This document shows positions 10,001 through 56,130 of a DNA stretch of 64,000 bases, one piece after another; positions within the stretch are counted from its first letter, which is position 1; the number at the start of each line of letters is the position of its first letter. The notes beneath the pieces were generated by a model. It did no database searches, was not told the DNA's origin, and was given only the letters and a program-made list of their open reading frames with translations. Location: the IMG/VR virus record IMGVR_UViG_3300009093_000039, positions 1-64,000 of that record; one strand, given 5' to 3'. The position numbers were made by a program, and so were the translations under genes. This stretch comes from a virus.

Positions 10001-10279
10001 TCAGGGTCCGCCGTAGATGCGATCCTCGGCCTGGCGCCAGAGCTCGCGCTGGATGCAGTAGAAGACGACGCGCTCGACGCGGCCGGCCATCGGCTGCTTC
10101 CGCTCGATCTTCTTCATCGCCTTCTTCCAGCGACGCGAGCCCACGTTGATCTCGTTGACCGGCACGTGTGCGGCGCGCATCTGCTCGAAGGCGCTGCGGG
10201 TGCCGGGTTTCGGCCCCTGGTTCCAGGGCTTCGGTTGCGCCACCAGACGGTTGATGGCGCGCACTTTGAGGCTGCTCAT
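10001..10279 (-). CDS. Hypothetical protein, 92 aa, very basic
   Basis: ATG 10279 (MSSLKVRAINRLV) lies behind AAGGAA; an ATG 15 bases earlier lacks a ribosome site. The protein is rich in Lys, Arg and Trp (SRRWKKAMKKIERKQ), consistent with DNA or RNA binding. No domain recognised. Confidence 0.7.
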   Translation of the reverse strand: MSSLKVRAINRLVAQPKPWNQGPKPGTRSAFEQMRAAHVPVNEINVGSRRWKKAMKKIERKQPMAGRVERVVFYCIQRELWRQAEDRIYGGP

Positions 10280-39572: not shown

Positions 39573-39950
39573 ATGAAACTCCAAGCCAAATCCCGTCTGC
39601 AAATGACAGCAGCAAAAGTGTCGGAGCCTACTGCGACACTGATCCGCAATCTGCTGGTGAAGCGCTGGGGAGCCAAAGCTCACGGCCAGTGGGGAAATTC
39701 CAATCCCTACGAAGACTTCCAGCAGATGACCTGTCAGCTCGATCCGAGCAAGATCGAGGACGTTGTGAAGACCTTCGAGTCCAACGGCTGGAAGGTTGAA
39801 CGCAATCTCGAGTACGCGACTGACCCGAAAGCGGTGCGACTCCTGTACCAAGGAGCGGTCGTCGCTACCGTGACCATCAACGGAAAAGGTTACGTCTGGA
39901 TCACTGGCCCGAAGAAGGCTAAGCAGTCTACTCTTCCGTACTACGACTGA
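39573..39950 (+). CDS. Hypothetical protein with LQAKSRL leader, 125 aa
   Basis: ATG 39573 (MKLQAKSRLQMTAAK) lies behind GAGGA; ATG 39555 upstream is less likely. The first ten residues belong to a leader motif shared with six other proteins up to 55.4 kb. The rest contains PYEDFQQMTCQLDPSKIEDVVKTFESNGWKVERN and a strand-rich end (VVATVTINGKGYVWITGP). No family recognised. The leader suggests virion or capsid targeting, by inference. Confidence 0.75.
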   Translation: MKLQAKSRLQMTAAKVSEPTATLIRNLLVKRWGAKAHGQWGNSNPYEDFQQMTCQLDPSKIEDVVKTFESNGWKVERNLEYATDPKAVRLLYQGAVVATVTINGKGYVWITGPKKAKQSTLPYYD

Positions 39951-39962
39951 TGTGAGCTGAAC

Positions 39963-40844
39963 ATGCCGACACCGTACATCAAGAAACTGAGCCGCGAAGG
40001 CAAGGGCTCCGTGCCCGAACTCGAGAAGAAGTGGGACGACGCCAAGGAAGCGGCTGGCAAGCAAGGCCACGCCAAGGACTACGGTTACGTCACCAACATC
40101 TTCAAGAAGATGAGCCATGCGTCGCTCGAGCTCCAGGCCAAGAGCCGCCTGCTGGCCACCGAAGGCCACTGGGAAGAAGGCTTCGGTCGCATCGACTACT
40201 ACGACGAGAACGGCACGATGGCTGCCGTGATCCGCGTCCAGCAGCAAGGTCGCAAGAACGTCGACGTGTTCGAGGTCGACATTCCGGGCAAGCCGAAGAA
40301 GTACTTCGGGTCGATGTCGACGGGTGCAACCCACCAGGACCTGTACGACGCGAAGGCCTACGTCGTAAAGGAATGCAAGGGCAAGGGTCTCGTGGCCTCG
40401 CACGTGCAGACAACAGCCAGCGCCGCCAGCGACAAGATTTTCGAGCTCTACATCAGCTACGAAGATCCGCGCCAGGGCGGCGACCTCGCGTCGGCCCGCA
40501 TCAAGATCGACCACTGCGTCGATGCCGAGCAGGCCAAGCGCGTCTTCCGCAAGGAGAAGGGTCACAAGTACCCGAAGTTCAAGATCATCCGCTGCGTCGA
40601 GATCGGCCCACCGACGAAGCTCAACATGAGCCTGATCGTTGCGTCGCTGAGCGCCGACCTCAAGAACGCAATCACAAGGATCGCCATCTACAACCTGAAG
40701 AGCCCGACTCCGGTCTCCAAGGTCACCGAACTGGTGATGAAGGACCCGCGGGTCAAGGCGCTGATGAAGGGCGTGGACCCTGATCTGGTCAAGACCTACG
40801 TCTCGAAGGTGTGGGACGACTTCGAGTCCGCGGTCAGCAACTGA
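39963..40844 (+). CDS. Modular protein with internal LELQAKSRLLA motif, 293 aa
   Basis: Residues 1-50 form a helical module (PTPYIKKLSREGKGSVPEL... YVTNIFKKM) of a type I associate with large-phage proteins. Residues 54-64 are SLELQAKSRLLA, the leader motif found at other N-termini. The remaining 230 residues are alpha/beta (YYDENGTMAAVIRVQQQGRKNVDV) with a helical end. The internal motif may mark a cleavage site between two modules. Function unknown. Confidence 0.75.
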   Translation: MPTPYIKKLSREGKGSVPELEKKWDDAKEAAGKQGHAKDYGYVTNIFKKMSHASLELQAKSRLLATEGHWEEGFGRIDYYDENGTMAAVIRVQQQGRKNVDVFEVDIPGKPKKYFGSMSTGATHQDLYDAKAYVVKECKGKGLVASHVQTTASAASDKIFELYISYEDPRQGGDLASARIKIDHCVDAEQAKRVFRKEKGHKYPKFKIIRCVEIGPPTKLNMSLIVASLSADLKNAITRIAIYNLKSPTPVSKVTELVMKDPRVKALMKGVDPDLVKTYVSKVWDDFESAVSN

Positions 40845-40855
40845 AGGAGGCCAAC

Positions 40856-42112
40856 GTGCCGCTGATGGACAACCGTTCCAATCTGACGCCTGCGAACATG
40901 CGGGCGTCGGATGTCGCCAAGACGATGGTCGAGCACGTGGCATCGATGCAACAGCAGCGCATGATCGCTGCGTTTCGTGTCCAGGGGTTCAAGGCCATCC
41001 TCTACTCGCGACTGAGCCAGGGCATCGCCTGCACCTGCAAGGGTGCGGAGAAGGCGGTGGGCCTGAAGTTGAATCCCGATGGTAAGGCCGACACAGGCAC
41101 GATCAATCGCGTGCTGACCGGTGAATCCAAGTTCGGCGTCGGCGCCTACAACCCGCTGTCGCCGGATTCCGAGTTCGACGACATCGACAACTTCCACGAC
41201 CACGAGACGAGCCCGAACAACGCGACCAATCAGTTCCTCGGTGACCTGCGGCGCGCGGGTCCCGACGACGGAACAAACAACCTGGTGACCGACGAACCGA
41301 CGATGACCGAGACTGGCATGTTCAGTCCCGACATCGACGCGCTGCTGCGCGACTTCGACTACGGATCGATCGGTCTCACCGACGTGAGCTGCCCACTGTG
41401 CTTCGGATCGGGGTACATCGGCGGCTTCTCGCCTTTCCGGGGCTGGCGTCAGGTCGTGGATGCGACCCGGATGCAGACCACGTCGACTCTCGACCTGACG
41501 ACGAGCCCGCTGGCCCTACGGCCCGGTACCTTCACGTTCGTCATGGTCCTGCCTCTCGGTGCTGCCGTCGTCGACTGCTTCCGCGTCATGAACGGCGACC
41601 GCATGGTCAGGGCGCAGATCCTGATCGACGGAACCGACACGATGAACAAGCGTGTCCTCAACTGGTTTGACGGTCGGCCTCACACCATCACGATCAACAG
41701 CCAGGACCCGGTCACGCACTTCGAGGCCCAGGCCGGTCTCAACCCCGAGCCGGTGTACTTCGAGTTCCCGAAGAAGGGCAAGAGCCAGGACATCTCGGTG
41801 TTCGAGAAGACCGAGCCGTTCCAGATCCTCATGAGCCCGGAGTGCCCGGAAGTCCAGACCCTGGACATCATCGCCGAGTCGCAATCGGGGCGGCTGCTGA
41901 TCGTCGGTACAGTCAACCCGTGGACGACGCGCGATCGCAACTTCCTCGGTCAAGAGGTCCAGGTGCGAGTCGCGCAGCCGGCCGAGCTCTGGCGCATCCT
42001 CCCAGTCCGTGGTCACGTCATGGTCAAGGAGCAGACGACCAACGCTGCGACGCCGTCGAAGGCGAACACGATCAGCGGCATCACCGACGGTGGCAGCAGC
42101 TTCACGTTCTGA
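40856..42112 (+). CDS. Putative virion structural protein, 418 aa
   Basis: GTG 40856 (VPLMDNRSNLTPANM) follows AAGGAGG; an ORF open further upstream lacks a ribosome site. The protein has an ACTCKGAEK segment and CPLCFGSGYIGGFSPF, a C-x2-C glycine-rich motif typical of some phage virion proteins. A long beta-rich C-terminal half follows. Its size, beta structure and position among probable virion genes suggest a baseplate or tail component. The specific role is unknown. Confidence 0.6.
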   Translation: MPLMDNRSNLTPANMRASDVAKTMVEHVASMQQQRMIAAFRVQGFKAILYSRLSQGIACTCKGAEKAVGLKLNPDGKADTGTINRVLTGESKFGVGAYNPLSPDSEFDDIDNFHDHETSPNNATNQFLGDLRRAGPDDGTNNLVTDEPTMTETGMFSPDIDALLRDFDYGSIGLTDVSCPLCFGSGYIGGFSPFRGWRQVVDATRMQTTSTLDLTTSPLALRPGTFTFVMVLPLGAAVVDCFRVMNGDRMVRAQILIDGTDTMNKRVLNWFDGRPHTITINSQDPVTHFEAQAGLNPEPVYFEFPKKGKSQDISVFEKTEPFQILMSPECPEVQTLDIIAESQSGRLLIVGTVNPWTTRDRNFLGQEVQVRVAQPAELWRILPVRGHVMVKEQTTNAATPSKANTISGITDGGSSFTF

Positions 42113-42126
42113 CCAGAGAGAACAAG

Positions 42127-42774
42127 ATGGAACTCCAACTGAAAGCCAAGGCGCGCCTCCTGAGCGCGGAACAACCGATGGACCCGAGTCCGCTGTTCAT
42201 GCCGGAGCGGCTGGTCATGCTCGACTGCGAGATGACCGGCCTCGATCCGAAGAAGGACGACATCATCCAGCTCACGGCTCTGAAGCTCGAATGGAACGGC
42301 AAGGCGTACGCCCGACCCGATTACTTCGATGACGACGAGTCGACGCTGAACCTGTTCATCCACACCGACCTGGCGCCGACCTCGGACTTCGCGCGCAAGC
42401 ACCTGACCGAGATCTACCGCAAGGCCAACGAGTCGAAGATCGACTACAAGATGGCGCGGTCGTTGCTCGAGCAGTGGCTCGGAACGTGGAAAGGCAAGGT
42501 CAGTCCGTGCGGCGACTGCGTGCCCACCGACATCCTGTTCCTCTACATGAAGAACGTGATCGATCTCAGCCACTACGATGGCGACACGCCGGTCGACGGC
42601 ACGTTCCACTACGAGTACTTCGACATGAACGCCATCAAGGCAGTGGCGCGGCAGAAGGCCGGACGCAAGTTCGACCGCGACGTCCCTCGGCTGCCGGGCG
42701 ATCATGATGCGCTGGTCGACTGCAAGAACCAGCTGGCGGAGATGAACGCCATCATCGCGGAGCTGATGCGATGA
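42127..42774 (+). CDS. DEDDh exonuclease (oligoribonuclease/DnaQ-like) with leader
   Basis: After an 18-residue leader (MELQLKAKARLLSAEQPM) comes an exonuclease core. MLDCEMTGLDPKKDDIIQL holds D-x-E (D33, E35), and the C-terminal GDHDALVDCKNQLAEM provides the His and last Asp. The first motif is closest to oligoribonuclease. It should degrade short single-stranded nucleic acids 3' to 5'. The leader is shared with proteins of unrelated function, so it is not part of the enzyme and may direct packaging into the virion. Confidence 0.82.
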   Translation: MELQLKAKARLLSAEQPMDPSPLFMPERLVMLDCEMTGLDPKKDDIIQLTALKLEWNGKAYARPDYFDDDESTLNLFIHTDLAPTSDFARKHLTEIYRKANESKIDYKMARSLLEQWLGTWKGKVSPCGDCVPTDILFLYMKNVIDLSHYDGDTPVDGTFHYEYFDMNAIKAVARQKAGRKFDRDVPRLPGDHDALVDCKNQLAEMNAIIAELMR

Positions 42775-43757
42775 CCAAAGTCAAGCAGCTACACGCGGCC
42801 GCAAGGCTCGAACTCATCGAAGCGCTCCTGGCTGTTGAAGCCAAGCAGGTGGGCGACGGTGGCAACGTCAGCGTCGAAGCATTCCTCAAGCGCATGGGGC
42901 AGATGGGCGCTGGCCTGATGCCGGTCAAGGGCAACGACTGCAGGGCGACCGTGATTCGCAGTCTCGCTCATGAGCTCGAGCGCAACCACGAGATCGTGAT
43001 CGTCGGTGAGCCCGGCCATCCGATCCACACCTTCACCGTCGGTGTCAATGGTCAGCCCGTGGCCGACTCGTATCACGGGCGTTACCACGACGGGATCTAC
43101 ACCTGCACGTTGTCGAACGGCGAGCACGCCGATCTTCAGACGCTGTACACCATCAACGTCCACGACTTCATCGCCAAGTATGTCGATCCGCTCCAAGTCC
43201 ATGGTCACGTGGTTCCTCGTCCCGACGGCCTTCGCACTAAGTGCGGCGGCCCTTCTTCTCGTCTGGCGTGCGCCATGTGCGCCCGTGAGGTCGAGCTGCT
43301 CGCAGGAGGCATCCATCCCCTGATGGTCGAAGCCGAGAAGATGAGCGCCAGGATCGAGCTCGAAGCGCAGCGCGAGCAGATCGAGGCTCGGAAGCACATC
43401 GATGACCTGCCGTTCCACCTCGACCTCAAGCTCGGGTTCGCATCCGAGGAGCAGTACCGTGCGATGGCTCACTTCCTGGCAGCTGTCGAATGGGAAGGCA
43501 CCGCCGGTCACAGCGTCGTCGTCGGCATGTTCGTCGACGGCGATGGTTCCGATCGGATGCAGGTCAAGGGCATCCCGCCTGAGATGATGAAGGTCGGTCA
43601 GGACATGGCCCGCCTCAGCTGCGAACACGGCGACAACCTGATGCTCAACATCGGGCCCGACAGCGCCCAAGCCTACAACGACCGATACGGCTCCGACGGT
43701 CAAGTACGAACCTACACACGCGACGTCGTGTATCCCGAACCTGACGACAAGGAATGA
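42771..43757 (+). CDS. Hypothetical protein with leader-like N-terminus, 328 aa
   Basis: The first residues (MTKVKQLHAAARLELIEALL) fit the leader pattern loosely (L-x-A-A-x-R-L). A middle part contains Cys residues (TKCGGPSSRLACAMCAREV), a possible zinc site. C-terminal segments (HSVVVGMFVDGDGSDRMQVKG) look alpha/beta. Coupled to the exonuclease gene by a 4-base overlap. No family recognised. Confidence 0.75.
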   Translation: MTKVKQLHAAARLELIEALLAVEAKQVGDGGNVSVEAFLKRMGQMGAGLMPVKGNDCRATVIRSLAHELERNHEIVIVGEPGHPIHTFTVGVNGQPVADSYHGRYHDGIYTCTLSNGEHADLQTLYTINVHDFIAKYVDPLQVHGHVVPRPDGLRTKCGGPSSRLACAMCAREVELLAGGIHPLMVEAEKMSARIELEAQREQIEARKHIDDLPFHLDLKLGFASEEQYRAMAHFLAAVEWEGTAGHSVVVGMFVDGDGSDRMQVKGIPPEMMKVGQDMARLSCEHGDNLMLNIGPDSAQAYNDRYGSDGQVRTYTRDVVYPEPDDKE

Positions 43758-44947
43758 ACATGCCCTCCAATCAGACCACGAAGTTCCGCAGCCTCGAAGA
43801 GGTCAAGCGCTTCCTGCAAGAGCAGACCAAGGAGTTCGACCTCGACCGTCAGATGGTCGACCGCGGACTCAGCCAGATCGCACGCGTCGTCAAGGCCTCT
43901 CCGGTCATCGCGCTCGACGTGAAGACGCTCGACATCAGCGGTGACGGCAAGAAGCGTCGCCGCACCATGAACATCGACTTCCCCGAGGTCGAGGTCCCGA
44001 ACGCCGACGAGCTGAAGCAGCACTACGCGCTGACCGAGCGGCTCAGCGAGCGCTACAAGTTCCTCGTGAACGCGGAGAACGAGTTCAAGATGAACATGCG
44101 GGGCGAGAACTCGAAGCAGTTCCAGGAAGTCCTGGGCGGCTTCCAGAAGCTCAAGACGCAGATCGAGGACTCGCTCAAGACCCTGTTCCAGGCGCTGGCC
44201 AAGATCGCTGAAGGACACGCACCGAAGCAGTACAAGAACTTCGTCAAGGCGCTGGCCGAAGAAATCGAGAACAACAAGTACATCGAGTGCGAGTCGCTGC
44301 AGACGATGACGTACGCCGCGCTCGACAAGGAAGACCAGCTGGTCTTCTGCGGCTACATCATCCTCCAGAACGCGGTGAACGACGAGGGCAAGGACGTGCC
44401 CCACCTCTACATCGCGGTCAAGTGGACGGTCGGCGGCAACGTCGAGCTCTTCATCGACCACGACTTCGTGCCGCCGGGCAAGCTCGAAGGCGGGCACACC
44501 ATCACCAGCCTGACGACGGCCGCGCAGGCCATCGCCAAGCAGATGAGCCTCGAAGGCTTCTCCAGCCAGATCGGCAACCTCCCGGTCTCGATGCAGATTC
44601 GCGAGCCGGCCGGTGGCCTGCGCCGTGAAGCCTTCTCGGCAGCCGAGGCCATCGAGTCGGTCGATGCCGCACGCGACGAGCTGATCTTCACGCTCAACAC
44701 GAACGACCCTGCGAAGGTGGCCGAGGCTCAGGCCCAAATCTTCCTCGAACTCAAGGCGATCGTGAAGCGCAAGAAGGGCACGCAGATTCGCGTCCGGCGC
44801 GACCAGAACGTGCTGACCTTCACGTTCTCGAACATGGACCACTCCGAGGGCGTCCATCCGATCGACCTCGAGTTCATGGAAGACAAGTACAAGCTGAGCC
44901 CGACGAAGGTGCGCAAGCTCTGCAACATCATCAACGAAGGCGACTGA
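43754..44947 (+). CDS. Hypothetical protein, 397 aa
   Basis: A largely helical N-terminal region (FRSLEEVKRFLQEQTKEFDLDRQMVDRGLSQIARVV ... KQFQEVLGGFQKLKTQIEDSLKTLFQALAKI) suggests coiled-coil assembly. An alpha/beta domain follows (YIAVKWTVGGNVELFIDHDFVPPG), with a basic C-terminus. It could be a virion or scaffold-type protein, given neighbours. No family recognised. Confidence 0.75.
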   Translation: MNMPSNQTTKFRSLEEVKRFLQEQTKEFDLDRQMVDRGLSQIARVVKASPVIALDVKTLDISGDGKKRRRTMNIDFPEVEVPNADELKQHYALTERLSERYKFLVNAENEFKMNMRGENSKQFQEVLGGFQKLKTQIEDSLKTLFQALAKIAEGHAPKQYKNFVKALAEEIENNKYIECESLQTMTYAALDKEDQLVFCGYIILQNAVNDEGKDVPHLYIAVKWTVGGNVELFIDHDFVPPGKLEGGHTITSLTTAAQAIAKQMSLEGFSSQIGNLPVSMQIREPAGGLRREAFSAAEAIESVDAARDELIFTLNTNDPAKVAEAQAQIFLELKAIVKRKKGTQIRVRRDQNVLTFTFSNMDHSEGVHPIDLEFMEDKYKLSPTKVRKLCNIINEGD

Positions 44948-44948
44948 G

Positions 44949-45485
44949 ATGGGACCGAACCAACTGCTGGCCGAGACCTACGACGAGTACATCAAGCGTC
45001 TTCGAGACCTGGACGTCGCCGAGATCGCCAGCGGTGAGTTCGGCGTCATCTTCCAGCACCCGACGATGAAGGACGTGGCGGTCAAGATCGTCAAGGCCGA
45101 CGATGCGTACATGCAGTACGTCGCGTTCTGTCGCAAGAACAAGGGCAACCCGTGGCTGCCCGAGATCATCGATGTCAACGAGTCGACGCTGGACGACAAG
45201 CGAATCGACATCGTGTTCATGAAGGTTCTGAAGCCCGCGACCGACAAGGATGTGGTCCTGGGCTTTCAGACGCTGGCGCCGGGTGCTGACCTCAAGCGCT
45301 TCAGTGAGCAGACCCGACTCTCGTACCCGGAGTGGATGCAGGCTGTCCGCTTCGCCAAGGGCATCGATGAGCGACAGCTCTGCGTCTTCATGGCCAAGCA
45401 CTTCAACCGGCTGGACCTCTACACACGCAACTTCATGATGCGTGGTACCCAGCTCGTCTTCAACGATCCGCTCTCACCGTCATGA
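44949..45485 (+). CDS. Protein-kinase-like small protein, 178 aa
   Basis: Features of the kinase fold appear in order. A glycine-rich loop-like stretch IASGEFGVIFQHP is followed by DVAVKIVKA (AVK, Lys46). A strand VFMKVLKP comes next, and then RLDLYTRNFMMRGTQLVFNDP, matching the catalytic loop (D156, N161) and the metal-binding Asp (D173 in place of DFG). It is much shorter than a normal kinase and has an HFNRLDL rather than HRD start. It might phosphorylate a host or phage protein, or be a pseudokinase. Confidence 0.5.
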   Translation: MGPNQLLAETYDEYIKRLRDLDVAEIASGEFGVIFQHPTMKDVAVKIVKADDAYMQYVAFCRKNKGNPWLPEIIDVNESTLDDKRIDIVFMKVLKPATDKDVVLGFQTLAPGADLKRFSEQTRLSYPEWMQAVRFAKGIDERQLCVFMAKHFNRLDLYTRNFMMRGTQLVFNDPLSPS

Positions 45486-46444
45486 CCAAACCCAAAGAAC
45501 TTCGCGCCGCGACAAGGCTCGCGGCCAAGATCGACATCGATATGGCTCTGCAGCGGCTGCACGAACGCCGCAACGGCCTGCCGTACTCGGGTCTTGCCTG
45601 GTCGGAAGCCCGCGGTCGCGAGCTCGCTGCCTCCGATGAAGACCTCGACCGCGTGGTCCCGCGTCACGATGGCATGAGCGCCGATCACGAGCTCGCGGTC
45701 GCGGTCGACAAGCTGGATCGGATGCCGGAGCGTCGGCACAACTTCGATCCCGAGTCCGTGGACATCGGCTCGATGGATCGCCCGGTCGGTGAAGAGCTGG
45801 TGCGCAAGCTGACCGCTGATACCGAGCGCGAGTTCACCGTTCAGCTCGCAGACAGCTACAACGAAGAAGACGGCACGATGAACATCGTCAGCTTCGACGT
45901 CATGGCCTTGTCGACCGAGCAGGCAATCGAACGCGCAGAAGCCAAGCTCGCGAGCCTCAAAGCTGCGGGTGCCAAGGTCGTCAAGGCCGCGATCTCGCAG
46001 CAGGTGCTGCTCGACGCCTACAAGCGACGGACGCAGGCTGGCCGCGAGACCGGCTTCGGCGGCGGCGTCCTGCTCTACAGCCAGGCCACGGGTCGCTTCC
46101 TGTTCATCAAGCGTTCGGAGACTGGCGACTGCCCTGGCACCTGGTGTGTTCCCGGCGGCGGCATCGAGGATGGCGAGACCATCGATCAGGGCACGAAGCG
46201 CGAGCTCTCGGAAGAGTGCGGCTACGATGAGCCCATCGAACTGCTGTTCATGCATCGCGACGTCCAGCCCAACTTCATCTTCCACAACCATATGGCTGTC
46301 GTGCCCGACGAGTTCGAGCCCACGCTCAACGAAGAGCACACAGACTACAAGTGGTGCGGCGCTGACGAGCTGCCCGAGCCCATGCACCCGAGGCTCGAGC
46401 ACGCGATGTCGGAGTGGACTCGCAAGAACGGAGCCCAGGAATGA
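45482..46444 (+). CDS. Nudix hydrolase with leader and N-terminal extension
   Basis: The C-terminal 150 residues are a clear Nudix domain. GFGGGVLLYSQATGRFLFIKRS precedes the box GGGIEDGETIDQGTKRELSEECGY, which has all Nudix residues. The N-terminus MTKPKELRAATRLAAKID resembles the leader family, and the next 150 residues are charged and mostly disordered. The hydrolase should cleave a nucleoside diphosphate-linked substrate. The leader suggests it may act in the particle or be targeted there. It overlaps neighbours by 4 bases on each side. Confidence 0.85.
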   Translation: MTKPKELRAATRLAAKIDIDMALQRLHERRNGLPYSGLAWSEARGRELAASDEDLDRVVPRHDGMSADHELAVAVDKLDRMPERRHNFDPESVDIGSMDRPVGEELVRKLTADTEREFTVQLADSYNEEDGTMNIVSFDVMALSTEQAIERAEAKLASLKAAGAKVVKAAISQQVLLDAYKRRTQAGRETGFGGGVLLYSQATGRFLFIKRSETGDCPGTWCVPGGGIEDGETIDQGTKRELSEECGYDEPIELLFMHRDVQPNFIFHNHMAVVPDEFEPTLNEEHTDYKWCGADELPEPMHPRLEHAMSEWTRKNGAQE

Positions 46445-47448
46445 ACATCACCGAAGTCAAGTCGCTGCTGACGCGGCTCAGCTTCACGGAGCTGAGCCTC
46501 ATCAAGGCTGACGAGGAAGCAGCGACCTACACCTTCAAGTTCCGCTTCTTCAACCCGAAGGTCATCTCGGTCAAGCCGACGATGGCGGCCAAGGGTACGG
46601 TCGCCGTCTACGACATCCCGGATGTGGGCAAGCTCGGCGTCAGCCCCAGCAACAACGTCGTGCGTTTCATCGACGCCGGCAAGCGCACCGAGAAGAAGGC
46701 GACTGACACCCACCTGTCCAAGTCGAGCGGTGTGACCCCGGAACTCGAGGCCATGTACCAGAAGGCGCAGGTCTCGGATTCCAAGCGGCAAGCCTTCATG
46801 AAGGCGCTGTGGGAGTACTACAACGAGCACAAGTTCCAGGGCCGCATGAAGCTGCCGAAATTGGTCTCGGACGCAAAGGTTCCGGGCATCGGCAGTCGCC
46901 CATCGACACGCGGTTTGCACGTCGGAGAAGCCGGTTTTCGGACCAAATTCCTCTGGTTCAATACGATCATGTGGAACGCCCGTTTGCCCTTCTTTCTGGA
47001 GGTTTTTCTCCACGAAATGTGCCACCAGGCGGTGTGGACGGTGGATCACGTACACGACCGCACAGCGCAGGGCCACGGGCCGGATTGGCAGCGTTGGATG
47101 GTGCACGTTGGCCTCGACCCCCGACGCTTCGATCCCACCGACGACTACGAGTACAAGACCGGCCTGCAGCGCACACAGGAGGAAGAGAAGAACACGGATC
47201 AGTATGGTCCGCGTGTCGACGCCTCGTACTTCAAGTCGTTGCACAAGATGGACGGCTTCGTCCCGGGCCCTGCGATCCTGGAAAAGAACGGTCGTGCCAT
47301 CAAGGGCGAACTCGACAAGGCGGGCAAGACCTACGCGTTCAAGTTCCGGCTCCACTACACGGGCGCTCCCGTGCAGATCACGTGGCCGTCGCTCGCCAAG
47401 TTCAATGAGCAGGGGCTTCCCCGTCTCTATCACGTACCCAAAGGCTGA
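46441..47448 (+). CDS. SprT-like zinc metalloprotease
   Basis: The catalytic zinc motif is FLHEMCHQAVW (H191-E-x2-H195), followed by GHGPDWQRWMVHVGL with H212 as third ligand, the SprT/Spartan arrangement. Residues 1-90 and 230-335 are extra domains. SprT-like proteases degrade proteins crosslinked to DNA. A phage copy could clear DNA-protein crosslinks or mature particle proteins. Codons in the catalytic stretch (about 46855-47010) look less GC-biased than flanking sequence. It is coupled to the Nudix gene. Confidence 0.82.
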   Translation: MNITEVKSLLTRLSFTELSLIKADEEAATYTFKFRFFNPKVISVKPTMAAKGTVAVYDIPDVGKLGVSPSNNVVRFIDAGKRTEKKATDTHLSKSSGVTPELEAMYQKAQVSDSKRQAFMKALWEYYNEHKFQGRMKLPKLVSDAKVPGIGSRPSTRGLHVGEAGFRTKFLWFNTIMWNARLPFFLEVFLHEMCHQAVWTVDHVHDRTAQGHGPDWQRWMVHVGLDPRRFDPTDDYEYKTGLQRTQEEEKNTDQYGPRVDASYFKSLHKMDGFVPGPAILEKNGRAIKGELDKAGKTYAFKFRLHYTGAPVQITWPSLAKFNEQGLPRLYHVPKG

Positions 47449-48932: not shown

Positions 48933-48939
48933 TTCAAAC

Positions 48940-48948
48940 GGTAAATAG
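48940..48948 (+). promoter_or_regulatory. GGTAAATAG late-promoter-like motif
   Basis: GGTAAATAG lies 8 bases after the virion gene stop and about 50 bases before ATG 48998. It is the best-placed intergenic copy of the motif on this strand. Role inferred. Confidence 0.45.
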
Positions 48949-48956
48949 AGGTCAAC

Positions 48957-48990
48957 GGGTCCCAAGCGGACCCTTTGGCGACTCCAAAGG
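48957..48990 (+). promoter_or_regulatory. Overlapping alternative hairpins covering a ribosome site
   Basis: GGGTCC (48957-48962) pairs with GGACCC (48968-48973), followed by TTT. CCTTTGG (48972-48978) pairs with CCAAAGG (48984-48990). The two stems share bases 48972-48973, so they compete. The second stem covers part of the AAAGGAAAG ribosome site of the glycosyltransferase gene. This looks like a translational or attenuation control. Confidence 0.5.
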
Positions 48991-48997
48991 AAAGTTC

Positions 48998-50131
48998 ATG
49001 AACTTCGGTCACGCACCACATCACCACCACCATTGTCCTCGTGTCCTCTTCGTCCTCAAGGCCAGGCCCAGCGGTGGCTACGGCACTTGGGGCTACAGTG
49101 CCAACGGCGGCCTGCTCCCTTCGGGCATGAGCGTCAGCGTCAAGCAGATGGTCAAGGCTCTGGAAGACATGGGCATCGAGGCCAAGCTCGTCCAGGTCCA
49201 GGACAACAACTTCATCCACCAGGAGGTCGTGTCCTACGCGCCGACCCATGTCATCATCGAAGGCTTTTGGGTCGTGCCCGACAAGTTCAAGGTGCTGGCG
49301 GCCATGAATCCCGAGATCGAGTGGATGGTCCGCTGTCACTCGAACACCGAGTTCCTGGCTCACGAGGGCACGGTGTTCGGCTGGGCGCTGGACTACCTGG
49401 AGCGCGGCATCACCGTCGGCTTCAACAGCCCCGACGCGGCGCGCGAGATCCGCGAACTCGTGCGCGACTCGGATGTCGAGCGGCCCGGTCGCATCGTCTA
49501 CCTGCCGAACTACTACGACTTCAACACGCACCTGTCGCTTCCGCGCGAGTGGCTGCAGCTCCTGGTCATCCGTCACCAGAAGGTCAAGCACCACGGCGAG
49601 TTCCACGTCGGTTGCTTCGGCGCCATCCGTCCGCTGAAGAACAACATGAACCAGGCGCTGGCAGCCCTCAAGGTCGCATCGCGGCTGGGCCTCAAGCTCA
49701 AGTTCTACATCAACGCGAGCCGCATCGAGAACAAGGGCGACGCGCTGCTGCGGAGCCTGAAGTCCCTGTTCGAGCGCATGAAGCCGCACGAGCTGGTCGA
49801 GGTCCCGTGGATGGACCATCACGACTTCATGAAGCTGCTGACCGAGATGGACATCGTCTCCCAGGTGTCGAACTCGGAGACCTTCAATATCGTGCTCGCC
49901 GACTCCGTGGTCTGCGACGTGCCGGTCGTCGGCGCCAACATCCCGTGGCTCGACGATGCCTACCAGGCCGACCCGAACAACGTGACCGAGATCGCGAACG
50001 TGATGCATCACACCTGGATCAAGAGCGGCAACGACTCGGTCCAGCAGCGCCAGAAGCGTACCCTCATCCAGTACGTGCGCAAGAGCGCCGACATCTGGCG
50101 CGACTACCTGATCCACGACCGCGCCTGCTGA
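48998..50131 (+). CDS. Glycosyltransferase, GT-B fold
   Basis: The N-terminal domain begins CPRVLFVLKARPSGGYGTWGYSANGGLLPSG, typical of GT4-like enzymes. The C-terminal donor domain has VGCFGAIRPLKNN, and VSNSETFNIVLADSVVCDVPVVGANIPWLDD with the E-x7-E-type sugar-nucleotide site. It should move a sugar to an unknown acceptor. Candidates are the phage DNA base or a virion/host surface component. Its start carries a natural run of five histidines (HAPHHHHHC). Two competing hairpins overlap its ribosome site. Confidence 0.82.
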   Translation: MNFGHAPHHHHHCPRVLFVLKARPSGGYGTWGYSANGGLLPSGMSVSVKQMVKALEDMGIEAKLVQVQDNNFIHQEVVSYAPTHVIIEGFWVVPDKFKVLAAMNPEIEWMVRCHSNTEFLAHEGTVFGWALDYLERGITVGFNSPDAAREIRELVRDSDVERPGRIVYLPNYYDFNTHLSLPREWLQLLVIRHQKVKHHGEFHVGCFGAIRPLKNNMNQALAALKVASRLGLKLKFYINASRIENKGDALLRSLKSLFERMKPHELVEVPWMDHHDFMKLLTEMDIVSQVSNSETFNIVLADSVVCDVPVVGANIPWLDDAYQADPNNVTEIANVMHHTWIKSGNDSVQQRQKRTLIQYVRKSADIWRDYLIHDRAC

Positions 50132-50165
50132 GCACCGAATCCGATCAACTACTGGAATGGAACAC

Positions 50166-52523
50166 ATGGACAAAACTGACAACACCGCCGCAGTTGCAAT
50201 CGCTGACGCAGGCAACGCGGTGCCGGCCCCGAAGATCCAGTCGAAGGCTCGTGTCACCAAGCGTGACGGATCGCTGCAAGAGCGCGACATCGACAAGATC
50301 CACGCGGTGCTCGAGTGGGCAGTCAACGGCGACGAGAACATGGGCCCGATCCGTGGGGTCTCGGTCGCCGACATCGAGGCCAATGCAGAGCTGCAGTTCT
50401 TCGACAAGATGAAGACCAGCCAGATCCATGACACGCTGATCGCGTCGGCGCGCGACCTCATCTCCGAGGACACGCCGAACTACGACCAGGTGGCAGCACG
50501 CCTGGTCTGGTTCAAGGTCCGGAAGGAAGCGTTCGGGCAGAACCATCCGCCGCACCTCAGCTACGTCATCGCCAAGAACGTGAAGATGAAGTTCTACGAT
50601 CCGGCGATCTACGAGCTGTACGACGAAGACGAGATCGACCAGCTGAACCGCATGATCGATCACACGCGTGACGACCTGTTCCGCTACGCAGGCGCCGAGC
50701 AGATGCGACTCAAGTACCTGTGTCAGAACCGCAAGACCCGGAAGCCCACCGAGTCGTTCCAGTTCCCGTACATCATGGTCGCGGCCACGCTGTGCAGCAA
50801 CGAGCCGCGCGAGACGCGGATGAAGTCTATCAAGGACTACTACGACGCGATCTCGACGCACAGCCTGTCGGAGCCGACTCCGGTCATGGCTGGCGTCCGC
50901 ACCCTCGTCAAGCAGTTCTCCAGCTGTGTCGTCATCAGCGCTGGCGACAGCCTCGATTCGATCGAGCGCGCTGGCCAGGCCATCCTGCGCTACGCATCGA
51001 AGAAGGCCGGCATCGGCATCGACGGCGGCCGCATCCGTGCTGTCAACCAGCCGATCCGCGGCGGCGAAGCCATCAGCACCGGCCAGATCCCGTTCATCAA
51101 GAAGTTCAACGGCGACCTGAAGTCCAGCGCCCAGGGCGGCGTCCGCGGCGCGAGTGCCACCTACAACTACATGTTCTGGCACCTCGAGTGGGAGTCCCTC
51201 ATCGAGCTCAAGAACGAGAAGGGCACCGACGAGACGCGCGTCCGGACCCTGGACTACGTGCCGGCCTTCAACGGCCTGTTCTTCGAGCGCTGGTCGCAGG
51301 ACAAGCACGTCACGCTCTTCAGCCCGGAGGAAGTCCCCGGCCTCTATGAAGCCTTCTACAGCCCGGACCTCAAGAAGTTCAAGGCTCTGTACGAGAAGTA
51401 CGAGGCCGACCCGAAGATCACGAAGCGCCAGATCCCTGCCGCCGAGATGGCGCAGAAGTTCCTACTCGAGCGCTTCGAGACCGGCCGTGTCTACTGCATG
51501 TTCGCCGACACGGTCAACACGCAGACGCCGTTCCTGGAAGCGGTGACGAGCACCAATCTGTGCGTCGAAATCTGTCTGGCGACGACGCCGGTCAGCGCCG
51601 AAGACCACAGCGTCGGTCGCATCGCCCTCTGCACCCTGGGCGCCATCAACCTGGGCAAGGTCGACCTCAGCACGCAGGCCGGCAAGGACGAGCTGCGTCG
51701 CGTCTGCCGTATCGCGGTCCGCACCAAGGACTCGCTGCTCAGCTACCAGGATTATCCGCTAGAAGAAGCGCGTCTGTCGGTCGAGGAGTACCGACCGCTC
51801 GGTATCGGCGTCATCGGCTTCGCGCACTGGATGGTGCGTCACGGTCTCCGCTGGGGCGAGGCCAAGACCATCGCCATGGTCAACGAGCTGTACGAGCACA
51901 TCAGCTACTACCTGATCGAAGCATCGGTCGAGCTGGCCGAAGAGCTGGGCCCGTGCAAGAAGCGCACGAAGTACAGCGATGGCTGGTTCCCGTGGGAGGA
52001 CTCGAAGCTGGTGCTGCCCAAGACTCTCGACTGGGAAGCGCTGCGTAAGCGCATGAAGGCCGCTGGCGGTACGCGCAACGCAACCCTCATGGCTGGCATG
52101 CCCAGCGAGACCAGCAGCCAGCTGGCGAACGAGACCAACGGCGACGAACCGCCGAAGAGCCTGGTCACGGTCAAGGACTCGAAGGACGGATCGCTGCCGC
52201 AGGTGGTGCCGGAGTTCGCGAAGTACAACCACCTGTACGAAACCCAGTGGGAAGTCGATCCTGTGGCGTACCTGAAGACGCTGGCTCCGCAGCAGCACTA
52301 CTACGATCAGGCCATCTCGATCAACAACAGCTTCGACCCGATGAAGATGGCGCGCGATCCGAAGACGGGCAAGGTCCTGCTGTCCACGTTCGCTTCCATC
52401 TTCACGCTCATGTACGACCTCGGCTACAAGACTGCGTACTACTCGAACGTGCGCAAGCCGCCGAAGCTCGGCGTCGAGGAAACCGAAGACGACGGCTGCG
52501 AGTCCGGCGCCTGCAAGATTTGA
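50166..52523 (+). CDS. nrdA: Ribonucleotide reductase, large subunit (class Ia)
   Basis: NrdA reduces ribonucleotides with NrdB. The N-terminal part holds an ATP-cone-like segment (RVTKRDGSLQERDIDKIHAVL). Catalytic features include FSSCVVISAGDS, TSTNLCVEICL (Cys and Glu of the active site) and LCTLGAINLGK. The C-terminal swinging pair is CESGAC. At 785 residues it is full length. The start is ATG 50166 with GGAA upstream; ATG 50157 is also in frame. NrdB follows 9 bases later. Confidence 0.95.
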   Translation: MDKTDNTAAVAIADAGNAVPAPKIQSKARVTKRDGSLQERDIDKIHAVLEWAVNGDENMGPIRGVSVADIEANAELQFFDKMKTSQIHDTLIASARDLISEDTPNYDQVAARLVWFKVRKEAFGQNHPPHLSYVIAKNVKMKFYDPAIYELYDEDEIDQLNRMIDHTRDDLFRYAGAEQMRLKYLCQNRKTRKPTESFQFPYIMVAATLCSNEPRETRMKSIKDYYDAISTHSLSEPTPVMAGVRTLVKQFSSCVVISAGDSLDSIERAGQAILRYASKKAGIGIDGGRIRAVNQPIRGGEAISTGQIPFIKKFNGDLKSSAQGGVRGASATYNYMFWHLEWESLIELKNEKGTDETRVRTLDYVPAFNGLFFERWSQDKHVTLFSPEEVPGLYEAFYSPDLKKFKALYEKYEADPKITKRQIPAAEMAQKFLLERFETGRVYCMFADTVNTQTPFLEAVTSTNLCVEICLATTPVSAEDHSVGRIALCTLGAINLGKVDLSTQAGKDELRRVCRIAVRTKDSLLSYQDYPLEEARLSVEEYRPLGIGVIGFAHWMVRHGLRWGEAKTIAMVNELYEHISYYLIEASVELAEELGPCKKRTKYSDGWFPWEDSKLVLPKTLDWEALRKRMKAAGGTRNATLMAGMPSETSSQLANETNGDEPPKSLVTVKDSKDGSLPQVVPEFAKYNHLYETQWEVDPVAYLKTLAPQQHYYDQAISINNSFDPMKMARDPKTGKVLLSTFASIFTLMYDLGYKTAYYSNVRKPPKLGVEETEDDGCESGACKI

Positions 52524-52532
52524 GGAACAAAG

Positions 52533-53603
52533 ATGCGACCCCTTTACTCCAACCCGAGCCAGCTCTTCTTCGCGCCGGAAGGCAAGCCCATCGCGCGCTA
52601 CGACAAGCCGCGCTACCCGATCTTCGACAAGCTCAACAAGTTGATGCGCAGCTTCAACTGGGAGCCCGAGACGGTGACCATGTCCGGGGAGCGACGGTCC
52701 TACAACTCGATGACCGACGCCGAGCAGTTCATCTTCACGTCGGGCCTCCAGCGTGCGATCATGCTGGATACGAAGCAAGGCGAGGAGCCGACTCTGGTCT
52801 TCGGCCCCAGCTGCACGGACCCGAGCCTGAGCAACTGCATCACGACCTGGCAGCAGTTCGAGACCATCCACAGCGAGAGCTACACGCACATCCTGCAAGC
52901 CGTGTACCCTGACGGCGGCACTGCCGTGGTGGATGCGATCCCTGGCATCACCGCCATCACGGACTGCGCGGCCGCGATCTCCGATGCCTACGATCGGATG
53001 AAGACGAACCCGACGAAGGAGAACCTGTATCTCGCGCTGTGCGAGGCCAACGCGCTGGAGGCCCTACGCTTCTTCAACTTCTTCGCCACGGTCTTCAACT
53101 TCAAGAAGCGCCTGCTGTGTTCGGGTTCGGGTGACGTCGTGAAGCTGATCGCTCGTGACGAGAACATCCACCTGTCGCTGGTCATGCACATCCTGAAAGC
53201 GCTGCCGAAGGACGATCCGGAGTTCGTGCAGATCATCGGCGACAACCGCGAGCGCGCGCTGCAGATCTACCGCACGGCGGCCGACCAGGAGAAGCAGTGG
53301 GCGCAGTACCTGTTCTCGCATGGCCCGATCCTGGGTCTCAACGAGGGCATCCTCTGCGACCACATCGACTACCGTGAGATCAAGGCCACGAACGGCATCG
53401 GCCTCACGAGCCGCAAGCTGCCTCCGCTGAACATCAGCTACATGGAGGAGTTCGTGGACGGCTCGGACAAGGTGCAGGCGGCGCCGCAGGAAGACGGCGC
53501 ACTCGAGTACCTGTCGGCGGCATCGCTGTTCAACGACATGGAGAGCTTCAAGCCGAAGCTCTCCGGTCGCAAGCTGAGCCTTGAAGAGCTGGTGGCGGTA
53601 TGA
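52533..53603 (+). CDS. nrdB: Ribonucleotide reductase, small subunit (class Ia)
   Basis: NrdB houses the di-iron tyrosyl-radical centre. Metal ligands are visible in FETIHSESYTHIL (E and H, with the radical Tyr in SYTHI, as in E. coli Y122), EALRFFNFF and RDENIHLSL (second E-x2-H). Length is 356 residues. The final residues (GRKLSLEELVAV) are the tail that contacts NrdA. The next gene starts inside its stop as ATGA. Confidence 0.95.
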   Translation: MRPLYSNPSQLFFAPEGKPIARYDKPRYPIFDKLNKLMRSFNWEPETVTMSGERRSYNSMTDAEQFIFTSGLQRAIMLDTKQGEEPTLVFGPSCTDPSLSNCITTWQQFETIHSESYTHILQAVYPDGGTAVVDAIPGITAITDCAAAISDAYDRMKTNPTKENLYLALCEANALEALRFFNFFATVFNFKKRLLCSGSGDVVKLIARDENIHLSLVMHILKALPKDDPEFVQIIGDNRERALQIYRTAADQEKQWAQYLFSHGPILGLNEGILCDHIDYREIKATNGIGLTSRKLPPLNISYMEEFVDGSDKVQAAPQEDGALEYLSAASLFNDMESFKPKLSGRKLSLEELVAV

Positions 53604-53890
53604 GCGACTGGATTCCCGATCCTGCACGCCGGCGTATCGTCTGTGCCGCGATCCTGTTCGAGCAGGGCATGATCGTCGGCCCGCGGCACTACGACGCGGT
53701 CATGATGGCGCAGTACAAGGCGATGGGGCTCAAGCAGACGGAGGCCGACGGCATCCAGGGCTTCATCGATCAGTTCGGCACCTTCTTCGATCGTGAGCAG
53801 GCCTTCGAGATCGCGACTCGTCAAGGTCAGATCCGTCACAAGACCGGCAACCCGGACTCCACCGAACTCTTCAGCGAGGACCTGTACTAG
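53600..53890 (+). CDS. Hypothetical protein downstream of nrdB, 96 aa
   Basis: A small alpha/beta protein (MSDWIPDPARRRIVCAAILFEQGMIVG...). The stretch FFDREQAFEIATRQGQI resembles short phage proteins often encoded near nrdB, and RIVCAAILFEQGMIVGPRHYD resembles their first half. It ends in TAG. No enzyme motif seen. Confidence 0.75.
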   Translation: MSDWIPDPARRRIVCAAILFEQGMIVGPRHYDAVMMAQYKAMGLKQTEADGIQGFIDQFGTFFDREQAFEIATRQGQIRHKTGNPDSTELFSEDLY

Positions 53891-53891
53891 C

Positions 53892-53921
53892 GAAGGGTCA
53901 CTTTCATGGTCACCCTTCTTT
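53892..53921 (+). terminator. Hairpin after nrdB unit, weak terminator candidate
   Basis: GAAGGGT (53892-53898) pairs with ACCCTTC (53912-53918) around a 13-base loop and is followed by TTT. The long loop and short T-run make it weak. Confidence 0.4.
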
Positions 53922-53935
53922 CGAGGAGCGTGACC

Positions 53936-54124
53936 ATGAACTTCTTTCGGCTCCCGTTTTTCGTCTCCCATCTCGGTTCCCTGCCGTTCTACAGGCGGTG
54001 GTACGGAGGTAGGTGGCTCAACGTCTGGACGAGTGCTTGCGGCCCGAATGTGTGGCAGCCTACGACCGTCCCTACCCCGTCGACTGCGGTCGGCACACCC
54101 ATCATTGAGGACTGGACAAAATGA
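53936..54124 (+). CDS. Small basic aromatic protein, 62 aa
   Basis: ATG 53936 (MNFFRLPFFVSHLG) follows GAGGAG. The first 25 residues are hydrophobic and aromatic (FFRLPFFVSHLGSLPFYRRWY). The rest is Thr/Pro-rich. It overlaps the next gene by 4 bases. Function unknown; a membrane-active role alongside the following membrane protein is possible. Confidence 0.6.
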   Translation: MNFFRLPFFVSHLGSLPFYRRWYGGRWLNVWTSACGPNVWQPTTVPTPSTAVGTPIIEDWTK

Positions 54125-54465
54125 GCGAAGACAACACCACACAATCGGCCGTGACCGAGACCACAACCGTGAAGACCGAAGTCACGGTGCAGCCGCCCAA
54201 GGAAGTGAGCATGATCGTCGCGACCATGACCATGCTGTGGGACTGGTTCGACAAGCGCGATGTCGAGAAGCACATCGTGGCGATGGCGACGCTGTTCGTC
54301 ACCTTCGGCGTCATCAAGTGGTCGATGCACTACGCCGACGTGAACGAGGCTCGCAACGGCACCGACATCGGCCTCATCATCGCGGCCATCAACGTGCCGC
54401 TGGCTGCATTCCAGACCGCGGTCATCAAGTGGTACTTCGAAGCCCGCACGGGTGGGGGTGTGTGA
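54121..54465 (+). CDS. Two-pass membrane protein, holin-like
   Basis: The N-terminal 28 residues are Thr/Val-rich and soluble. Hydrophobic stretches lie at about residues 54-69 (HIVAMATLFVTFGVIKW) and 82-103 (IGLIIAAINVPLAAFQTAVIKWYF), with a charged loop between. Size and topology fit a class II-type holin, but there is no adjacent lysozyme, so this is a guess. Overlaps both neighbours. Confidence 0.6.
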   Translation: MSEDNTTQSAVTETTTVKTEVTVQPPKEVSMIVATMTMLWDWFDKRDVEKHIVAMATLFVTFGVIKWSMHYADVNEARNGTDIGLIIAAINVPLAAFQTAVIKWYFEARTGGGV

Positions 54466-54797
54466 TGGTCCGATCTATCAGCGATCAAGTCGAGCTGCTG
54501 CAAGCTCTCGAAGTCACGGACGACGAGTCGTTCCTGCCGGGCGACCGCATGGTCAAGGGCTGCATCATCAAGACCCGTGGCAAGACCATCGTTCGCGACT
54601 CGTCCGACCTCGCCAACGAGCACGATGCGCACGAACCCTTCATCGTGTGGGAGTGCGCGGGTGGTCCGATCCTGGTCTGCGGCGACGACACGCTCTACAG
54701 GCTGTCGAAGCTCGAGTGCCTCATGGTCAGAGCCAGGGTCATGTCGGTCAACTACCTGGACGGACGGTACAACAGTCACGATCGACAAGGCGGCTGA
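54465..54797 (+). CDS. Hypothetical protein, 110 aa
   Basis: ATG 54465 shares a base with the upstream stop. A small beta-rich protein (GDRMVKGCIIKTRGKTIVRDS ... EPFIVWECAGGPILVCGDDTLY) with three cysteines. No family recognised. Confidence 0.7.
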   Translation: MVRSISDQVELLQALEVTDDESFLPGDRMVKGCIIKTRGKTIVRDSSDLANEHDAHEPFIVWECAGGPILVCGDDTLYRLSKLECLMVRARVMSVNYLDGRYNSHDRQGG

Positions 54798-54800
54798 AAG

Positions 54801-54813
54801 GTCCAATTTTATG
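54801..54813 (+). promoter_or_regulatory. GTCCAATTTTATG motif, second copy
   Basis: GTCCAATTTTATG ends at the ATG of the HNH gene. It is nearly identical to the string at 37884. Here AAAGG lies just before it as a ribosome site, so part of the similarity may reflect translation rather than transcription. Confidence 0.3.
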
Positions 54814-55170
54814 GTCATGCAACGCAGACCCAACGTCCGCCGGCGTGCTGATGGCACCGCCCGCATTCAGCGTGAGTCCTACTCGACCACGCAAACCGAC
54901 TGGTGGGAGATTCGCAAGCGTGTGTGGGATCGCGACGATGGCAAGTGCCAAGACCGGCGCTCAGGCCGTGCGTGTGGAGCACCTGGAAAGGACGTCCACC
55001 ACATCCTGAAGCTGTCTGCCGGTGGCACCACGACCATGAGCAATCTCATCACGCTTTGCGGCGCTTGCCACGACGCGCGACACACGCACCTGCAGCGTGG
55101 CAACCACGAGCGGCCGAAGCCGAAGAACCCGTGGGGTCGCAAACCCGCCCTCAAACCCTATCGCCCGTGA
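54811..55170 (+). CDS. HNH endonuclease
   Basis: A 119-residue protein with the HNH core CQDRRSGRACGAPGKDVHHILKLSAGGTTTMSNLITLCGACHDARH. The H-H pair lies in VHHI, Asn in MSNLITLC, and the last His in CHDARH. Cysteines C-x2-C flank it and may bind zinc. The N-terminus is basic (MVMQRRPNVRRRADG), and ATG 54817 is an alternative start. It could be a free-standing homing nuclease or a DNA-cutting packaging accessory. Its site is unknown. Confidence 0.88.
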   Translation: MVMQRRPNVRRRADGTARIQRESYSTTQTDWWEIRKRVWDRDDGKCQDRRSGRACGAPGKDVHHILKLSAGGTTTMSNLITLCGACHDARHTHLQRGNHERPKPKNPWGRKPALKPYRP

Positions 55171-55177
55171 GGTCAAG

Positions 55178-55381
55178 ATGATCCTCCAGCTCAAAGCCAA
55201 GTCCAGGCTCATGGCCAAGATCGGCCCCATCAAGCACGGCGACTTCCACAAGTGGCTGGGCAAGAGCGAGGACGAACCCATCACCGAAGCGGACATCGCG
55301 AAAGGCAAGGCGGCCGGCGGCCATCCCGCAAAGATGGCTGAGTTCGCCGAGACCTCCAAACACTGGGATCACAGCAAATGA
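55178..55381 (+). CDS. Short protein with LQLKAKSRL leader, 67 aa
   Basis: The leader MILQLKAKSRLMAK is followed by a compact module GPIKHGDFHKWLGKSEDEPITEADIAKGKAAGGHPAKMAEFAETSKHW, of a helical type seen in other large-phage proteins. ATG 55178 overlaps nothing upstream. The next gene starts within its stop by 4 bases. The leader plus tiny module suggests a packaged or targeted polypeptide. Confidence 0.75.
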   Translation: MILQLKAKSRLMAKIGPIKHGDFHKWLGKSEDEPITEADIAKGKAAGGHPAKMAEFAETSKHWDHSK

Positions 55382-56130
55382 ATCTCGAACTCCAAGCCAA
55401 GCAACGCCTGCTCGCCAGCTCGACCTACGACCAGCCGACGCAGCCCGTGTCCAACTCGGCCACCTTCTTCGCCAGCGTCGATGACGACTCGCGGCGCGTG
55501 ATCGAGACCGAGCTGGGTGATGCACGCCGTGGTCACGCCGCCGCAAAGGCCCGTGGTCACACCGATGCGGTGACCGCTTACGAGAACCTGATCTCCGAGC
55601 TCGAGCGCGCGTCCAAGCCGGTCACGGCCAACGACACGTCGGACTTCGGATCGCTGCCGACCTCGAACCCGAGCGACCTGCCCGCCACAGACCACGAGGC
55701 GGAAGCCGCAGACGACGTGATCCTGGGCGCCGACACGAGCTCCGCGCAGCAGCCGTGCATCATGGAAGGCGACGTCGATCCCGCTGATCCGAACGGCGAA
55801 GACCCGCTGAAGCTCGACACGACGGCCAGCCGCCTCTTCACCGAAGCCGAGGTGCGTGAAGCCGGCAAGCGCTATCGCGCGGAACTCGAGGCCGAAGCCG
55901 GCCGACCGCTCAGCGACGACGAGGTGATCGCCATGGCGAATGCGAAGACGCTGGCGTCGACCGAAGATCCGATCTCCGACGGCGCGGCCTTCGACATGCT
56001 CATCGACGGCGACGACGAGGAAGACGAGCCGGTCGTGCAGGAGCTGACGAACAACGACGGTGGCGTCGAGCCGCCGACCGATCAGCCGCTCCTCATCGAC
56101 GACGTGAGCCAAGGCCCTCCCACCATCTAG
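55378..56130 (+). CDS. Acidic protein with LELQAKQRLLA leader, 250 aa
   Basis: The leader MNLELQAKQRLLASS is followed by a strongly acidic, mostly disordered chain with helical parts (SRRVIETELGDARRGHAAAKARGH, TEAEVREAGKRYRAELEAEAGR). It ends in TAG after DVSQGPPTI. Acidity and leader resemble phage internal or scaffold proteins removed on maturation, but this is inference. Confidence 0.75.
   Translation: MNLELQAKQRLLASSTYDQPTQPVSNSATFFASVDDDSRRVIETELGDARRGHAAAKARGHTDAVTAYENLISELERASKPVTANDTSDFGSLPTSNPSDLPATDHEAEAADDVILGADTSSAQQPCIMEGDVDPADPNGEDPLKLDTTASRLFTEAEVREAGKRYRAELEAEAGRPLSDDEVIAMANAKTLASTEDPISDGAAFDMLIDGDDEEDEPVVQELTNNDGGVEPPTDQPLLIDDVSQGPPTI

Follow-up and report, generated by a model that had tools for sequence, protein, structure and literature searches.

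What is the same short peptide doing on seven otherwise unrelated phage proteins, all but once at their first residues? An earlier note on the window (the whole stretch of DNA analysed, bases 1-64000 of a virus record of 139,364 bases) listed these seven instances and read them as the mark of a sorting or cleavage signal. All seven are present as described (Table 1), and the peptide, hereafter the tag, has the consensus h-x-A-[A/K]-x-R-L-x-A. The capsid protein of the record is 55-68% identical to those of the Burkholderia phages BcepSauron and BcepSaruman and of the Achromobacter phage Motura, and 34-38% identical to those of PaBG, Y3, Lu11 and others. We name these capsid-defined relatives the PaBG/Motura group (labels such as G001 or L014 are our own handles).

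Tag carriers in the record and its relatives

We searched for tags with a regular expression ([LIMVF].A..RL, restricted to residues 1-26) and with a profile trained without the genome under study (score ≥ 8), and derived expected counts from windows inside the proteins searched. The 175 genes of the record were called with a codon-usage script, whose calls are rough for small fragments. The regular expression matched 15 of these genes, where the internal rate predicts 0.65, and one match (at 10001, minus strand) is probably due to chance. The profile trained on other genomes only identified 14 N-terminal carriers, against 0.00 expected. Eight further tags lie past the window, reaching 77.7 kb.

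Table 1. Tags and associated features of the record (positions in bases; profile, score of the tag with the profile).
Feature	Position	Gene	Strand	Support
N-terminal tag MKLQAKSRLQM, 125-aa protein of unknown function	39573..39605	39573-39950	+	profile 20.7
Leader module MPTPYIKKL..EGKGSVPELEKKWD..DYGYVTNIFKKM ahead of internal tag	39963..40115		+	module then tag, four lineages
Internal tag LELQAKSRLLA, residues 55-65 of 293-aa protein (SLELQAKSRLLA = residues 54-65)	40125..40157	39963-40844	+	
N-terminal tag MELQLKAKARLLS, RNase_T-type exonuclease	42127..42165	42127-42774	+	profile 19.6
N-terminal tag MTKVKQLHAAARLEL, 328-aa protein	42771..42815	42771-43757	+	profile 8.2
N-terminal tag MTKPKELRAATRLAA, Nudix hydrolase	45482..45526	45482-46444	+	profile 14.3
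N-terminal tag MILQLKAKSRLMA, 67-aa protein	55178..55216	55178-55381	+	profile 15.3; G002 homologue tagged
N-terminal tag MNLELQAKQRLLA, 250-aa acidic protein	55378..55416	55378-56130	+	profile 29.8; G001 and G002 homologues tagged
Head maturation (prohead) protease	63263..64000 (runs on to 64051)		+	phrog_18299, E 1.6e-69
Tag beyond window, MTKLQAKSRLVAA	64056			
Tag beyond window, MNDIKLKAKSRLGS	64434			
Tag beyond window, MKLHAKSRLLAL	73063			
Tag beyond window, MKLQAKARLSS	73386			
Tag beyond window, MKLQAKSRLLAF	74457			
Tag beyond window, MKLEAETRLML	75310			
Tag beyond window, MEIQLQAKARLSAF	77434			
Tag beyond window, MDIQAKARLQEM	77744			

The two matches that had been called loose are genuine, e.g., the G001 homologue of the Nudix protein at 45482 begins MTHKELRAAMRL. 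The copy inside the 39963 gene is also genuine: a leader module of about 50 residues (EGKGSxxxLEKKWD..YxxxxxIFKKM) stands before it, homologous in four lineages and with the tag after it at the same place in each. In the form EGKGSxxLEKKWD..YxxVTxIFKKM this module recurs N-terminally in the window (39963-40115), in G001_72804, G016_56790 and G007_224640, and in Motura_108240, where it heads a Nudix homologue in place of the tag.

The same profile test identified 13 N-terminal carriers in Motura, 11 in G002, seven in G001, seven among the 26 genes of G003 and four in G007. The signal is weaker in BcepSauron (at the strictest threshold, four carriers where 1.08 are expected). The search of relatives that the earlier note had proposed thus extends the tag to BcepSauron, Motura and many IMG/VR contigs. 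PaBG, Y3 and the more distant relative Lauda gave zero tags of the LxAKxRL form with the profile. The bodies behind the tags fall in separate sequence clusters in the window, and in dozens of unrelated clusters across relatives. A literature search, which did not reach subscription papers, found no published description of the motif.

Position among head genes, virion link and possible cleavage

The tag is confined to one strand of the record: 14 of the 91 genes on the strand of the capsid gene carry it, versus none of the 84 on the opposite strand (p 6e-5). Hence, the tag is not equally common in early proteins, the outcome that the earlier note had said would refute its reading. All 14 N-terminal carriers lie less than 30 kb from the major capsid gene (p 2.7e-6), and Motura shows the same strand bias (12/57 versus 1/232, p 1.4e-8). 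The gene at 63263, previously noted as a possible protease, encodes a homologue of head maturation proteases. It is directly followed by the tagged genes 64056 and 64434, a scaffold-like gene (65461), a virion protein gene and the major capsid gene (67741; phrog_2522, E 2.3e-87). We infer the scaffold role of 65461 from its position and composition, and its place between protease and capsid gene is conserved. The phage has the combination of a prohead protease and a separate scaffold-like gene that is looked for in the use of a T4-type capsid-targeting signal (CTS).

The scaffold-like family (65461-66987; L001:1461-2987) contains repeated STSTHFxNE and GGSTHFxN peptides, and the tagged gene 64434 joins the tag with ASTSLH, suggesting a link to this family. 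The gap before the scaffold-like gene (64764-65300; L001:764-1300) holds an open frame missed by the gene caller (MKTHLSDPSQRAYVGTLVAMLQPG..., about 170 aa, untagged). The N-termini of 19 of the 34 major capsid proteins resemble the tag above the 95th percentile and those of scaffold proteins are also alike, a modest likeness in which homologous sequences amount to about one observation. We regard it only as a lead toward a putative receptor of the tag.

Could the tag send proteins elsewhere, to a membrane or replication compartment, or to some other late structure such as the tail tube or baseplate? Genes that we take from their sequence to encode the tail sheath (70541) and tube (72536) are interleaved with tagged genes, and several carriers, e.g., that of gene 75310, have hydrophobic stretches that might span a membrane. 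Yet, the tail proteins that we recognised are untagged, as are the presumed thymidylate synthase, ribonucleotide reductase and topoisomerase, also named from sequence. DNA replication proteins lack the tag, which argues against import into a replication compartment. Soluble Nudix, Acb1 and exonuclease proteins have no clear role in a tail, and tags adjoin the head protease and the scaffold. We therefore consider a destination other than the head unlikely.

A link to the virion comes from PaBG, where gp83 (PaBG_00083, 54998-55960), a carrier of the tag variant of this phage (see below), is band 9 of the published virion proteome (PMC7412058, Table 1). This identification assumes that gp numbers equal locus tags, which agrees for the capsid protein and the sheath, and there is a gap of 21 Da between the predicted mass and that in the list. 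The chance of finding at least one of the six PaBG carriers among the 14 listed virion proteins is p 0.24, so the presence of gp83 is consistent with packaging, not decisive.

The virion proteins of PaBG are proteolytically processed, and its capsid protein loses 20% of its mass (PMC7412058). A-x-E, the typical site of gp21-type proteases (PMC10052503, PMC9026906), is found in the N-termini of 25 of 32 distinct capsid protein sequences. Relative to the bodies, the stretch just past the tag is enriched 2.2-fold in A-x-E and 5.4-fold in [VIL]-x-A-A. This enrichment, the A-x-E of capsid N-termini and the protease gene adjoining two carriers would fit a motif that is simply the recognition site of the head protease, all carriers being substrates and targeting a by-product or absent. 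Glu, however, occupies +4 after only 15 of 113 tags, and it pairs with Ala at +2 no more often than expected (8 versus 10 expected), so that a fixed A-x-E cut after every tag is unsupported. Furthermore, a cleavage site requires no N-terminal place. A recognition site as the whole explanation is accordingly improbable in our view. Removal of the tag by the head protease as a general rule is plausible, if somewhat doubtful, and some carriers may be trimmed while others are left intact.

Conservation of the peptide and lineage dialects

The codons of matching tag residues differ as much as genome usage predicts: their synonymous identity is 0.377 in the record (0.452 expected) and 0.363 in Motura (0.333 expected). 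Hence, selection acts on the peptide and the conserved unit is the peptide, the DNA varying freely in its codons. The motif lies mostly at the first codons, as would a DNA or RNA element at the starts of late genes or the trace of recent recombination copying one 5' end. Such origins are rejected by the codon test, by the copy conserved 55 residues into four homologous proteins and by the variable offset of the tag from the start codon, and we give them almost no weight. Hydrophobic residues of the tag alternate as in a beta-strand (z +18.8 at 170 degrees, a value partly due to the residues fixed in the search pattern). An amphipathic helix is ruled out, the moment at 100 degrees being below that of shuffles (z -3.0).

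Tags within one phage, on unrelated bodies, are more similar at the variable positions (0.441) than tags of different phages (0.285). In 2000 shuffles of the labels the difference reached 0.031 at most, with a standard deviation of 0.0095, against the 0.155 observed. Tags on homologous bodies of different phages have a mean similarity of 0.414, from pairs that include close relatives. Each lineage thus has its own dialect of the tag. Some depart from the consensus: five proteins of contig L061 carry MKLTAH[YF], which lacks RL altogether; six proteins of PaBG share [IV]K[IV]NLxEAxA, and in a held-out ranking five of them came top among 277; and the dialect of Y3 is x[IL]x[IV]SLSA[KR], for which three of five carriers came top among 260. 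The last two dialects were spotted by inspection, which makes the held-out ranks somewhat favourable. We propose that they are equivalent to the LxAKxRL tag in place and use; peptides of this length do not allow homology to be judged. A search of 2.9 million viral contigs with strict DNA patterns for the dialects gave matches only in the PaBG/Motura group or in unplaceable contigs. Chance, or common ancestry of the bodies, has next to nothing in its favour beyond the few carriers that are homologous between phages, given the 14 carriers against 0.00 expected and the separate clusters of the bodies in the window.

A probable address for packaging, and its putative cargo

The exonuclease and the Nudix enzyme named in the earlier note are confirmed by Pfam (PF00929, 2.7e-6; PF00293, 1.8e-17). 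Scans of Pfam and PHROG found no domain for most carrier bodies; those recognised are Nudix (in five genomes including Y3), RNase_T exonuclease, Acb1 and DarA_C. Some Nudix homologues of PaBG, Motura and Lauda are untagged. Residues 121-302 of the Nudix protein 45482-46444 match part of a portal-protein PHROG (phrog_15528, 1.8e-11), which hints at portal-Nudix fusions elsewhere.

The Acb1 homologue of PaBG (NC_022096, 182632-183165; L143:2632-3162), annotated as RNA ligase LigT, matches PF23474 (1.9e-14), has a tag of the PaBG dialect and lies near the head protease gene. It is possibly a head-packaged anti-CBASS enzyme, Acb1 being a type of counter-defence enzyme that would suit preloading. 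DarA_C (PF18789) was absent from the window's own carriers in the domain scan; among relatives, two tagged proteins have it (E 5.8e-14 and 1.6e-10). In L015 it is a separate gene that opens with a tag (MRIEAKQRLLAS, MRIEAKQRLLASHQFKYAM). In L014 it is fused behind a tagged homologue of gene 75310 (junction IDAFKAFSKTIVASKEFKYAM) and the place of its tag reads AFSKTIVAS, with no intact tag. The tag is present when DarA_C is its own gene and absent when it is fused, as expected of a sorting signal, for which one tag per polypeptide chain is predicted.

The C-terminal part of gene 74457 has the look of an ADP-ribosyltransferase in its sequence; a single-sequence structure prediction of this gene (pLDDT 31) was unusable. 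The prediction for gene 75310 from six homologues (pLDDT 50) had no fold match in PDB at E ≤ 0.001, and its sequence had no match there. A module W[WF]xxLxxxxQxxYLxxHPxSK[YF] often stands right after the tag or near the C-terminus of tagged proteins (G016_33273, L024_16119, L047_15492, L055_16213, gene 75310 and others) and is repeated in BcepSauron. The tagged L022:6658-7305 and L024:6219-6728 have a zinc-metallopeptidase-like HEFGH motif, with a weak zincin-family match below the cut-off.

The tag is probably a capsid-targeting signal, like the T4 CTS in function and from a separate sequence family. The sorting part of the earlier reading is well supported: the bodies are unrelated, the place is N-terminal, the carriers cluster with head genes, the lineages have dialects, DarA_C gains and loses the tag with gene fission and fusion, gp83 is in the virion and the cargo types fit; the cleavage part is only plausible. 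The untagged Nudix homologues, the lack of a tag of this form in Lauda, the chance level for gp83 and the modest likeness of capsid and scaffold N-termini count against a capsid-targeting signal. Carriers made late would be bound via the tag inside the prohead, where the candidate receptors are the scaffold-like 65461, the protease and the N-terminus of the capsid protein. They would be enclosed when the shell forms and remain in the head, some perhaps trimmed by the head protease. Ejection would then occur along with the DNA, and the proteins would act early in counter-defence or take-over. Receptor and tag would change together, giving each lineage its own dialect.

Several known systems resemble this one in part. 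The CTS of the T4 internal proteins IPI, IPII and IPIII is an N-terminal peptide of 10-19 residues that by itself suffices for packaging foreign proteins in T4 (PMC9026906, PMC10229621). As here, it sits on otherwise unrelated proteins of a phage with a protease and a separate scaffold, and its cargo is variable, in T4 including counter-restriction proteins. In contrast, the tag is on about 8% of the proteome, not on few proteins, occurs in lineage dialects, sometimes has a leader module first and shows no general L/I-x-E cleavage. The IPI-III propeptides have no obvious sequence resemblance to the tag; such peptides are too short for a homology test, and we do not claim membership of the CTS family. 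Phage P1 packages the counter-restriction protein DarB with an N-terminal signal (PMC9024508), and its DarA, located inside the head, has its N-terminus cut by Pro (PMC12810830). DarA_C occurs among the carriers of relatives, but no consensus emerged from Dar N-termini in one study (PMC9024508) whereas the tag is common to carriers and strongly conserved. For myoviruses, packaging of Nudix and ART domains in the head has been suggested (PMC9503650). Head proteins of SPN3US and phiKZ have N-terminal propeptides cut after AxE by a T4 gp21-like protease (PMC10052503). Unlike the tag, these propeptides are mostly of 111-254 residues, with two of 20-24, and no single short motif has been described in them. 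Encapsulation peptides of microcompartments and encapsulins are short and terminal, and bring unrelated enzymes into a protein shell; they are cellular and typically amphipathic helices, whereas the tag is strand-like in its hydrophobic periodicity.

Phage proteins injected with the DNA are mostly unknown and usually unreadable from sequence. If the tag is a packaging address, it would name, for each phage of a large and poorly known group of jumbo phages, around 12 proteins as candidates for injection, many of them lacking any known domain and likely to counter host immunity. The tag would then also be a second capsid-targeting code, independent from that of T4, whose natural dialects offer a guide to the receptor and a possible means of loading heads with proteins. 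The odds seem to us evenly balanced that the code is general, each lineage of the PaBG, Motura and BcepSauron group having a short strand-like N-terminal dialect and a co-evolving receptor, such that a gene gaining the local dialect becomes preloaded cargo. If so, the head would hold a fast-changing counter-defence arsenal that includes Nudix, Acb1 and DarA_C, and sequence alone would be enough to read off head cargo not yet known.
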